Origin: Alphaproteobacteria bacterium
Lineage (GTDB): Bacteria > Pseudomonadota > Alphaproteobacteria > SMXS01
Direction: 5' to 3'
Length of the DNA: 64,000 nucleotides
Assembly (NCBI GenBank): GCA_028284945.1
Contig: JANQQJ010000040.1
Span: forward strand, 1 to 64,000
The notes beneath the pieces are model-generated. The model had not been told where the DNA came from and did no database searches. It saw only the letters and a list, made by a program, of their open reading frames with translations. Within the stretch, counting starts at the first letter, position 1; every line of letters starts with the position of its first letter. Made by a program: the position numbers and the translations under genes. Of the stretch, positions 48,784 to 53,326 are shown one piece after another.

Positions 48784-49782
48784 ATGAACCCCATTCGCAC
48801 ATTGGTCGCGATCAGCTTCGCCCTGGTCATCGCGGCCTGTTCCGAAGATGAGGCCCCTGCACCGACAGCCGATGGCCGAACCACCATCACCTTCGCCACG
48901 GACTGGCGCGCGCAGGCTGAACAGGGCGGTTTTTATCAAGCGCTGGCGACTGGTGAATATGAGAAACGCGGTCTCGACGTCACGATCCTGCAGGGCGGCC
49001 CTTCGGTGAATGTGCCGCAATTGCTGGCCGCCGGGTCGGTCGATCTGGGCATGGGGTCGAACAGCTTCGGCGCGCTCAATCTCGCGGCGCAGAACGTGCC
49101 CGTTAAGGCCGTTGCCGCCTTCATGCAAAAGGACCCACAGGTGTTGATCGCCCATCCCGGTCAGGGGATTGAGAGCATTGCCGATATGGCCGGGCATCCG
49201 ATCCTGCTATCCGATGCGTCGATCACGGAATTCTGGGTCTGGCTGAAGGATGTCTACGGTTTCACCGACGATCAGGTGCGCAAATACACCTTCAACCCGG
49301 CGCCGTTCCTGGCGGATGAGCGTGCGGTCCAGCAGGGCTATCTGACAAGTGAGCCCTATACCATCGAGCAGCAAAGCGGCGTCAAGCCCAAGGTCTTCTT
49401 GCTCGCCAACAGCGGTTACCCCGGCTATGCGGCCATGGTACTGGCCTCCGATGAGATGATCGAAACCAACCCGGACGCGGTCCGCGCCTTTGTCGAAGCC
49501 AGCGCGGCCGGCTGGGAAAGCTATCTTTACGGAGACCCTGCCCCCGGCAACGCGCTGATTATGAAGGACAACCCGGAAATGCCCGCCGACCTGATCGAGC
49601 ATGCCCGCGAAATGATGCGCAAAATGGAAATCGTGAAGTCCGCCGACACACCGATCGGTCACATGACCGACGGACGCTGGGCCGACTTTTTCGCGATTGC
49701 CGCCGGCCGCGGTGTCTACGCGGACGATATCGACTACAAGTCAGCCTACACGTTGGAATTTGTCGGGCGCGCCCAGGACTGA
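48784..49782 (+). CDS. ABC transporter substrate-binding lipoprotein (NitT/TauT/THI5-like)
   Basis: This is a 332-residue periplasmic binding protein. The signal peptide ends in the lipobox VIAACS (C at ~19). The mature part follows the NMT1/THI5-like fold: TFATDWRAQAEQGGFYQAL, EKRGLDVTILQGGPSVNVPQLLAAGSVDLGMGSNSF, and IADMAGHPILLSDASITEFWVWL. This group binds small ligands such as pyrimidine precursors, aromatic acids, sulfonates or nitrate. The ligand is not evident. AAGGAG lies just upstream. Its stop overlaps the ATPase start by 1 nt. Confidence 0.9.
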   Translation: MNPIRTLVAISFALVIAACSEDEAPAPTADGRTTITFATDWRAQAEQGGFYQALATGEYEKRGLDVTILQGGPSVNVPQLLAAGSVDLGMGSNSFGALNLAAQNVPVKAVAAFMQKDPQVLIAHPGQGIESIADMAGHPILLSDASITEFWVWLKDVYGFTDDQVRKYTFNPAPFLADERAVQQGYLTSEPYTIEQQSGVKPKVFLLANSGYPGYAAMVLASDEMIETNPDAVRAFVEASAAGWESYLYGDPAPGNALIMKDNPEMPADLIEHAREMMRKMEIVKSADTPIGHMTDGRWADFFAIAAGRGVYADDIDYKSAYTLEFVGRAQD

Positions 49783-50528
49783 TGGCGACGGCACGACTCA
49801 CCGCCGTTGAGGTCGACTATCCAGGCCGCGGCAGGGCGCTCGGACCATTCGACCTGACCGTCAATCCGGGCGAAATTGTCGCCATCGTCGGGCCCTCCGG
49901 CTGCGGCAAAAGTACGGCGCTGCGCCTTTTGGCCGGCCTTGAAGACCCGACCCGTGGTGCCGTCGAACGGACACCTGGGCGCGGCGAGACTTCTGTCGTC
50001 TTTCAGGCCCCGACGCTGATGCCCTGGGCCAGCGCGCGGACCAATGTCGCCCTGCCTTTCGAATTGGCCGGCACGCCCAAGGGACAGGCCCGCGCGGACG
50101 CCGATGCGGCGCTTGAACGCGTCGGACTGGCAGATGCGGTCGACGCCAAGCCGGCGCAGCTGTCGGGCGGGATGGCAATGCGTGTTTCCATCGCCCGCGC
50201 CCTTGTGACCCAACCTAAACTGCTGTTGATGGATGAACCCTTTGCGGCCCTCGATGAAATCACCCGCCGTGCGCTGGGCGATGACATCCACCGTCTGTGG
50301 GACGACACGAAGCCCGCCATCGTGTTCGTAACCCATAACGTGGAAGAGGCGGTCTATATGGCCCACCGGGTCGTCGCCATGTCTGCCGCACCCGGCCGCG
50401 TCCACATGACGGCCGACGTACCGGGCGAATTGCCGCGTGCCCCCCACTTCAGGACCACGACGGAATTCCGCAATATTGTCGAGACCATTTCAGACGCCAT
50501 GGCCGATACGATGAGCGCGGTGGCATGA
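49782..50528 (+). CDS. ABC transporter ATP-binding protein (NitT/TauT type)
   Basis: This 248-residue ATPase has all core motifs: Walker A GPSGCGKST (~37-45), Q-loop VFQAPTLMPWASARTNV, signature LSGGMAMRVSIARALV, Walker B LLLMDEPFAALDE, and the switch His in FVTHNVEEAVYMAHR. The LMPWASARTNV and EEAVYMA runs are typical of taurine/nitrate importers. Overlaps of 1 nt and 4 nt tie it to the binding protein and permease genes. Confidence 0.95.
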   Translation: MATARLTAVEVDYPGRGRALGPFDLTVNPGEIVAIVGPSGCGKSTALRLLAGLEDPTRGAVERTPGRGETSVVFQAPTLMPWASARTNVALPFELAGTPKGQARADADAALERVGLADAVDAKPAQLSGGMAMRVSIARALVTQPKLLLMDEPFAALDEITRRALGDDIHRLWDDTKPAIVFVTHNVEEAVYMAHRVVAMSAAPGRVHMTADVPGELPRAPHFRTTTEFRNIVETISDAMADTMSAVA

Positions 50529-51292
50529 AACGCCTGATCGACATTCTGGCGCCCTTTGTTCTGCTCGCCGTCCTGCTGGGTATCTGGGAGGCTGCATGCC
50601 GCATACTCGAGCTGCCACCCTATTTCCTGCCCCCACCCAGCCAGGTGGCGGGCGAAATTGTCACTGAAAATGCACTGCTGTTTGCCTCGGCCTGGAATAC
50701 ACTCTTGATGGCGTTGAAGGCACTGGTGGTCGCCAGCCTGTTGGCAACCGGGATCGCCATCAGTGTTGCTATGAACCAGACCATGGAAAAGGCCGTACGG
50801 CCCTTGGCTGTCGCGCTCCAGGTAACACCGGTCGTCGCCATTGCGCCGCAGGTGGTTATCTGGGCAGGCTTGGAGCATCCGGACCGGGCGATCATTGCGC
50901 TGGCCACTATCGTTGCCTTCTTCCCGATTTTTTCCGGGGCGTTGACCGGCCTGAAGGCCTCCGACCGAGACCTGGAACGCCTATTCGACCTTTATGGCGC
51001 GACGAAATGGCAAAGGCTCTGGCGCCTGCGCATCCCTTCGGCGCTGCCCTTCCTGCTGGAAGGGCACAAAGTCGCCGGTGGCTTGGCGTTGATCGGCGCG
51101 GTGGTCGCTGAATTTGTCGCGGGCTCCGGCGGCGCACAGGGCCTGGCTTGGCGTATTCTGGAAGCCAGCAACCGGCTTCAGACGGCCAAGAGCTTTGCGG
51201 CCGTGATCATTCTGGCGATCATGGGCGCGGTGCTCTACGCCGCCCTCTCCTATGGCGAAAAAGCGATCTTGAAACGCCTTCGCGGCAGTTGA
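50525..51292 (+). CDS. ABC transporter permease (NitT/TauT type)
   Basis: This is a 255-residue inner-membrane permease with about six helices. It begins LIDILAPFVLLAVLLGIWEAACR. The ATPase-contact loop is seen in DLERLFDLYGATKWQRLWRLRIPSALPFLLEGHKVAGGLAL, the EAA-type motif. FYLPPPSQV-type residues near the N-terminus (YFLPPPSQVAGEI) are common in this subfamily. It starts 4 nt inside the ATPase gene and completes the three-part importer. Confidence 0.93.
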   Translation: MKRLIDILAPFVLLAVLLGIWEAACRILELPPYFLPPPSQVAGEIVTENALLFASAWNTLLMALKALVVASLLATGIAISVAMNQTMEKAVRPLAVALQVTPVVAIAPQVVIWAGLEHPDRAIIALATIVAFFPIFSGALTGLKASDRDLERLFDLYGATKWQRLWRLRIPSALPFLLEGHKVAGGLALIGAVVAEFVAGSGGAQGLAWRILEASNRLQTAKSFAAVIILAIMGAVLYAALSYGEKAILKRLRGS

Positions 51293-51297
51293 GGCAG

Positions 51298-52224
51298 CTA
51301 GCGCTCTTCGGGCGCTACATAACTCGGAAAACTGACTGAGAACACGTCCCCTTCTTCAAAGTTATCGATACTCAACAATTCTAGCTGGAGGTCGTCCTCT
51401 CGAGATCCCTCGTCTCCACGCTGCAAATTGATAAGGGTTGCAACATCTCCCTGCTTCCAGGCCGTGACCAAAGTGCGCCACAGCGGGTCTTTGAGATCGG
51501 GAAATCCCCCCGCCCATTGCGGATGGGTCCTGAGCCAGTCGAGAAATTCGGTCCCGCCGGGCAGATCGCTGGCAGCGACAAAACATCCTGTACCGATCTT
51601 TCCACCCATCCGCATCAGATCGTGTTCGGCACACGTAAGCGTTTTCCCACCAACGTCGGCCGATGCCGTGTTGCCGTTGCGTCGAGCTTTAACCTCGACC
51701 TTGGGGTCGACACGCGGCTTGGTGAACTGCTGGAACATATTAGCGAGCATCGCCTTTTGGTTTTCATCGGCACCTTCTGGCGCACCAGCGATGACTGAAC
51801 CACCCGGGCTCTGACCGCTGCCAGCCATGGGCTCCCACCTCACCGCCTGGCTCACATGGTCGACGTAGTAAATCCGCTGCAAGTCGTAGCGGTAGATCAC
51901 TTCTTTGAGGTCATTTGCGCTACTCGTCGGCTCGTCCATCACCAAGGTTTCCGGTTCATGGGTCAATGCGCGGCCCTGACTTGGTGCCGCGACTTCCGCC
52001 ATTGTTGATATCGTTGACGTCTTGCCCGCCCCGGACGGACCGATGACCCCATAGGCCGGTGCGCGGATGGCGTTGCTGTCGATAGTGACGTCGATATCCT
52101 GAATGGCCTGGCCGCCATAATCGCTGGCAACCATATTGATCCGGTATGCTGCCTCAGCACTTACGCTGAACGACATCATGGCAACGCCAAGCACCCATAT
52201 AGTTGTCCCGCGTGACTTCCCCAT
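51298..52224 (-). CDS. Exported DUF4412-like protein with an ABC-ATPase-like insert
   Basis: This 308-residue protein has a signal peptide (cleavage near AEA-AYR). Residues 27-56 (YRINMVASDYGGQAIQ...) and 108-308 (VIYRYDLQRIYYVDH, a Cys pair near 198 and 214, LSIDNFEEGDVFSV) resemble DUF4412-type periplasmic proteins of unknown role. Between them, residues ~59-106 read like pieces of an ABC ATPase. GPSGAGKTS (62-70) is a perfect Walker A. After only 24 residues, RALTHEPETLVMDEPTSS follows, matching the Walker B region. Q-loop, signature motif and switch His are absent, so ATPase activity is not expected, least of all in the periplasm. It lies 5 nt from the convergent ABC permease gene, but that operon's ATPase is not an obvious source. 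Confidence 0.7.
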   Translation of the reverse strand: MGKSRGTTIWVLGVAMMSFSVSAEAAYRINMVASDYGGQAIQDIDVTIDSNAIRAPAYGVIGPSGAGKTSTISTMAEVAAPSQGRALTHEPETLVMDEPTSSANDLKEVIYRYDLQRIYYVDHVSQAVRWEPMAGSGQSPGGSVIAGAPEGADENQKAMLANMFQQFTKPRVDPKVEVKARRNGNTASADVGGKTLTCAEHDLMRMGGKIGTGCFVAASDLPGGTEFLDWLRTHPQWAGGFPDLKDPLWRTLVTAWKQGDVATLINLQRGDEGSREDDLQLELLSIDNFEEGDVFSVSFPSYVAPEER

Positions 52225-52325
52225 CTCTACCTCTCCCCTGATGGTTTCGGATGACTAACAATTCTATAGCAAAAAAGACGCCGGCAACTGATTGAGCGCA
52301 ATGGCCGCGAACCACCCGATCCGCG

Positions 52326-53227: not shown

Positions 53228-53312
53228 GTCATTGCGAGCGCAACGAAGCAATCCAGTCTAATCTTCCGCATCACTATGGATTGCCACGCTCCCTAGGGTC
53301 GCTCGCAATGAC
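53228..53312. repeat. Palindromic intergenic repeat (REP-like)
   Basis: GTCATTGCGAGCG at the left end is the exact reverse complement of CGCTCGCAATGAC at the right end, with an inner pair GCAATCCA/TGGATTGC. It is a relative of the element at 11938-12018 and fills the spacer downstream of ilvD. Confidence 0.8.
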
Positions 53313-53326
53313 GAAGAACCGAAGCG

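Follow-up and report, generated by a model that had tools for sequence, protein, structure and literature searches.

A probable chimera of an internally deleted ABC ATPase remnant and a putatively exported DUF4412-like protein

Introduction

How does a gene that appears to encode an exported protein come to carry both Walker motifs of an ABC ATPase within a few dozen residues? This question is raised by a minus-strand gene in the 64,000-nt stretch of alphaproteobacterial DNA analysed here (henceforth the window; features are listed in Table 1). A preliminary description of the window had located a perfect Walker A, followed by a Walker B together with the run before it, in residues 57-106 of the encoded 308-aa protein (51907-52056, a mapping that is exact), and had suggested either an insertion or recombination of ABC-ATPase pieces into a periplasmic protein or convergent mimicry. 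In the following, we argue that the gene is probably a chimera, i.e., a signal peptide joined to the remnant of an internally deleted ABC NBD and to an exported DUF4412-like body.

Results

Gene and export signal

The gene is 100% identical in the source assembly (G000:C11). Read from the sequence, an SD-like GGGGAGAGG is found at 52230-52238 with the ATG start 5 bases downstream, and the N-terminus of the protein shows a classical signal peptide MGKSRGTTIWVLGVAMMSFSVSAEA, as had been claimed. In an alignment, the homologues L042, L043, L044 and L060 have their signal peptides at the same place. From this N-terminus we infer Sec export of the protein. An internal start at M31, which would imply a cytosolic reading, was rejected: no ribosome site precedes M31, while a good one precedes the start of the signal peptide.

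Table 1. Features of the gene and its product; coordinates refer to the window.
Feature	Residues	Position	Strand	Basis
Whole CDS, 308 aa, putatively exported, probably chimeric protein	1-308	51298..52224	-	ORF, sequence
Signal peptide (predicted)	1-25	52150..52224	-	inferred from sequence: KSR n-region, hydrophobic core, AEA/A
Stretch resembling the ABC N-terminal beta-hairpin (YGGQAIQDIDVTI..), with 4-residue extra (RAPA)	26-56	52057..52149	-	ABC profile, NCBIfam
Walker A strand, P-loop GPSGAGKT and following helix	57-84	51973..52056	-	Pfam, NCBIfam, ABC profile
ABC Walker B strand and preceding run (RALTHEPETLVMDEPTSSA)	85-103	51916..51972	-	NCBIfam, ABC profile, scoring vs ABC domains
DUF4412-like body	107-308	51301..51906	-	BLASTP to L042, family-profile shuffles

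Two ABC-ATPase pieces without the middle

The P-loop (residues 61-68) is indeed a perfect Walker A, and RALTHEPETLVMDEPTSS (residues 85-102) is an ABC-type Walker B in which DEPTSS begins at residue 98; the key residues of both motifs are uneroded. The spacing from GKT to DEPT is 29 residues, such that the 24 residues reported before are an undercount. As the preliminary description had also stated, the middle of an ABC domain is missing, i.e., these 29 residues hold no Q-loop, helical subdomain or LSGGQ signature.

For the whole protein, the Pfam model ABC_tran (PF00005) yields 22.8 bits, which is below its cut-off of 25, while an 84-aa fragment exceeds it (27.2 bits, E=6.9e-6). Within NCBIfam, the whole protein matches dozens of ABC families, with drrA scoring best (6e-7). 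Each piece is also recognised by itself: the 29-aa Walker A piece matches drrA (1.1e-5), and the 25-aa Walker B piece matches 22 families with E-values of 0.0035 to 0.16 each, all of them ABC ATPases aligned at their Walker B. Furthermore, we built an ABC profile from 48 ABC domains, taken from this genome and related ones. It shows two matches in the correct order, namely of residues 26-87 to profile positions 3-61 (36.5 bits) and of residues 84-102 to positions 148-166 (12.8 bits), with a total score of 47 bits, and for neither piece did any of 1000 shuffles reach the real score. The resemblance ends after Walker B, where no D-loop/H-switch was found and 551/1000 shuffles of residues 107-135 fit the ABC profile as well as the real sequence. 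The ABC piece is genuine rather than coincidental.

Compared to an ABC NBD (PF00005; the nearest NCBIfam model is TIGR01188 drrA, whose cut-off is not reached), the protein thus shares the hairpin-like N-terminal stretch, the perfect Walker A and a Walker B with its RAL..PE run, but it is devoid of Q-loop, helical subdomain, LSGGQ signature and H-switch, and its 29 residues between the Walker motifs contrast with about 100 in the NBD. Unlike in an NBD, the tract stands behind a signal peptide, and its bit scores are far below the NCBIfam cut-offs.

A body distantly related to DUF4412-like proteins

The flanks had been described as those of an ordinary DUF4412-type protein, which holds in part: the C-terminal body is distantly DUF4412-like, but the N-terminal flank is probably ABC-like (see below) and Pfam's DUF4412 model (PF14371) finds neither the whole protein (E<=1) nor its C-terminal part or the protein minus the segment (E<=10). 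A search with the DUF4412 family identified L042 (G002) and L043 (G004) in relatives as well as the paralogue L044 on contig C8 of the own genome. L042, which in contrast to the window protein passes the Pfam cut-off for PF14371 (1.4e-6), aligns to residues 118-252 with a BLASTP E-value of 2e-5 from a single pairwise comparison. For a four-member family profile, 0/1000 shuffles match the score of residues 136-230 and 5/1000 that of residues 105-135. The same profile assigns 18.3 bits to the protein without the segment and 14.8 bits with it. In a five-sequence alignment, the segment is mainly gap in the homologues; that is, the proposed comparison with DUF4412 homologues shows those without the segment aligning with a gap at its place. 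A seven-member protein alignment (A3) misplaced signal peptides onto the P-loop and was discarded.

Given these comparisons, the body appears distantly related to exported DUF4412-like proteins. Together with L060 (G253), the three proteins named above form the set of PF14371 relatives, which share with the window protein the signal peptide, an IYR..(V/I)DH strand pair, a similar body length and two cysteines (C198, C214) with G207 between them; they differ in having no ABC tract and show about 20% identity to the window protein. Two further DUF4412-like relatives, L106/L058 (G372) and L107 (G332), contain one in-frame TAG each and are perhaps pseudogenes.

Proteins with DUF4412 are expected to adopt a LolA/ependymin-like beta fold. 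In a low-confidence AlphaFold model (mean pLDDT 46), strands 52-57 and 107-112 are separated by an unstructured stretch of residues 59-105, where the block means are mostly 26-32; a single-sequence model is uninformative (pLDDT 37). When the former was submitted to Foldseek, the best, weak matches were ependymin-related, with LolA and RseB lower (E-values of 0.04-0.85 for a model of this mean pLDDT).

Extent of the ABC tract

The boundaries of 57-106 are probably too narrow. Within the window protein, the match of the ABC profile starts at residue 26, directly behind the signal peptide, and shuffling residues 26-56 alone lowers the ABC score by 7.5 bits on average, with only 2/1000 shuffles being as good. 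The signal of this flank is carried by residues 26-48 (4/1000 shuffles as good). NCBIfam agrees: compared to nine shuffled flanks, the real one scores higher in 9/9 cases for drrA (27.7 vs at most 26.1 bits), PhnC (21.0 vs 17.4), PstB (20.5 vs 14.7) and others, and several of the alignments extend to the N-termini of the profiles. CydD is an exception, since one shuffled flank is slightly above the real one (22.8 vs 22.0). In terms of motifs, IDSNAI(RAPA)YGVIGPSGAGKT corresponds to the usual ABC IEPGEI-YGVIGP.. with four extra residues. On the other hand, DUF4412-family profiles, which are weak, do not profit from residues 26-56, since 660/1000 and 614/1000 shuffles do just as well. Since the flank scores ABC-like and brings no gain for the DUF4412 profiles, a tract of residues ~26-103 seems more likely than one of 57-106, where we consider the ABC resemblance of residues 26-56 to be moderate.

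The foremost alternative is that an already shortened ABC piece, covering residues ~57-106, entered an otherwise intact DUF4412-like protein between its strands 3 and 4, such that residues 26-56 would be the hairpin of that protein itself. By eye, these residues fit the DUF4412-like strand pattern, M31 is common to the homologues, and alignment A4 places the homologue strands (LDADNVRI, VDGKFVR) on IDSNAIRA and D/EMIYR on KEVIYR, so that the gap falls precisely between the two. Provided with this alignment, AlphaFold predicts strands 27-34, 40-48 and 52-57 followed by a disordered loop, but here the model follows the alignment supplied. As the profile statistics of the flank and the reach of the NCBIfam ABC profiles to their N-terminus both oppose it, we regard such a narrow insertion as possible but rather unlikely.

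Junction, donor search and distribution

For the favoured chimera with the wider tract, an old recombination would have placed the ABC remnant directly behind the signal peptide of a DUF4412-like protein. The remnant would consist of the N-terminal hairpin, the strand-loop-helix of Walker A and the strand of Walker B, with roughly 75-90 residues (Q-loop, helical subdomain, signature) lost between the Walker pieces. These would meet at G84-RAL, where 'PSQGRA' fits as the close of the Walker A piece and 'RALTHEPE' as the opening of the Walker B piece. In the junction 'APSQG-RAL-THEPE', a PxxGRA end and an ARALxxxPE start share 'RAL', and we infer from this pattern that the junction could stem from a deletion whose end points lay in two short stretches of similar sequence.

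A comparison of the 150 bp segment with ABC genes of the same genome, as proposed earlier, reveals no donor at the DNA level: in the own genome, the best nucleotide matches span only 15-32 bp (E >= 0.07), and the in-frame DNA identity of 30 own ABC loci to the tract is about 40-60%. The neighbouring ABC ATPase gene (49782-50528) was rejected as donor; its protein score of 132 ties (with L077) for the best of the 30 loci, but the in-frame DNA identity is just 36/81 and 30/63. This neighbourhood (48784-51292, plus strand) is a complete ABC importer cassette of an NMT1/THI5-like substrate-binding lipoprotein, ATPase and permease that is convergent with the chimeric gene. In codon usage, the tract does not stand out from the remainder of the gene, so that a very recent foreign insertion is not indicated. 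Given this codon usage and the missing DNA donor in the genome, the recombination is probably old, or a foreign donor has long since adapted.

So far, the ABC segment is found in one sequence of one genome. Among 385 genomes of the class, the C-terminal 203 aa have no homologue, and the family profile retrieves only distant members, none of them with an ABC tract; nothing further was found in 349 genomes of a phylum-wide draw, which in part overlaps with the former. Searching GTDB-220 contigs twice, once for the protein and once for its neighbour, returned nothing; such scans detect close relatives only. Using the neighbouring alpha/beta hydrolase as synteny anchor in genomes of the family, we found the hydrolase in most of them (40-48% identity) with no adjoining DUF4412-like gene. 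In the window, a dispersed intergenic repeat with inverted ends (gtcattgcgagcgcaacgaagcaatccag...tcgctcgcaatgac) occupies 53228-53314 between this hydrolase and ilvD; the genome contains 15 more matches to it at 73-97% identity, one of which (C26:85418-85503) adjoins a paralogous hydrolase. On plasmids, the annotated matches are only ABC genes, and the one match without annotation lies behind two genes for branched-chain amino acid permeases. Finally, a search of the 385 genomes for a short Walker A-Walker B spacing, which was limited to particular codons, was noisy: among 30 checked loci, only a UrtD case is in frame, such that these loci yielded no second example.

Discussion

Within the chimera, the body would fold on its own, and the remnant would most likely be a flexible loop or take the place of edge strands. 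The periplasm contains little ATP. Since the remnant has no Q-loop, signature or H-switch and would sit where ATP is scarce, it is, judged by its sequence, incapable of working as an ABC motor, and it is probably a tolerated loop or a set of edge strands rather than an ATPase.

A different role would be that of a working minimal P-loop (beta-P-loop-alpha-beta) whose putative periplasmic ligand is phosphate, a nucleotide or nucleic acid. The perfect Walker A, the retained Walker B and their intact key residues speak for such a unit, and designed P-loop polypeptides of 40-60 residues show nucleotide binding and weak phosphoryl transfer (PMC10119929). These prototypes also resemble the remnant in their beta-(P-loop)-alpha unit and short chain; they are, however, designed, have no auxiliary active-site residues and were studied as purified proteins, while the window protein is natural, putatively exported and not predicted to form the P-loop unit. 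Neither AlphaFold model, both of low confidence, shows a folded P-loop unit. In simulations, moreover, isolated Walker A peptides do not differ in behaviour from control peptides (PMC11959459). With the periplasmic scarcity of ATP and the occurrence in just one sequence as further objections, we consider a working P-loop improbable. Slightly less probable still is its more specific form, in which the tract would be a natural miniature P-loop of ~78 residues (hairpin, P-loop, helix, Walker B strand) that arose by internal deletion from an ABC domain and was domesticated, putatively binding phosphate or nucleotides outside the cytoplasm.

The apparent Walker B could also be a misread part of an undeleted N-terminal ABC piece, i.e., of a contiguous UrtD-type tract. 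The UrtD-type ABC ATPase L113 (G283, contig C18, around 15728) has an LDEPT about 28 residues past its Walker A, which mimics a short-spaced Walker B and makes the UrtD LDEPT a trap for motif-based calls. It reads GPNGAGKTTMMDVITGKTRPDSGTAMFEGRHDLTRLDEPT with almost the same spacing as in our protein, and the UrtD profile aligns residues 37-98. Residues 85-108, however, reach a score of only 25 against this stretch of L113, where just MDEPT is matched and 72/1000 shuffles are as good, compared to 49 against the true Walker B of L113 (0/1000 shuffles). Likewise, the mean score over the 48 ABC domains is 44.8 for the Walker B region and 17.1 for the region following Walker A. On these alignment scores, we rejected a contiguous tract without deletion as very unlikely.

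Chance or convergence in an unconstrained loop, or an assembly artefact, is least probable of all: the segment comes from a single genome and no homologue has it, but the shuffle tests of both pieces, the single open frame that runs through three parts, each with matches to other proteins, and the lack of duplicated DNA able to mislead an assembler (best 91% over 23 bp) speak against it, and the presence of two separate long ABC matches in the right order makes convergent mimicry unlikely.

We thus return to the chimera, which would be a clear case in which a fragment of a domain that ranks among the commonest in proteins was fused in frame with an unrelated exported protein, the frame staying open and the Walker residues intact. 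It also serves as a warning, since motif-based annotation would label a periplasmic protein as ABC ATPase. Should the fragment have retained phosphate binding, the designed P-loop prototypes would have an equivalent in nature. Within the reach of a single genome, the locus bears on how new proteins may arise from pieces of existing ones.
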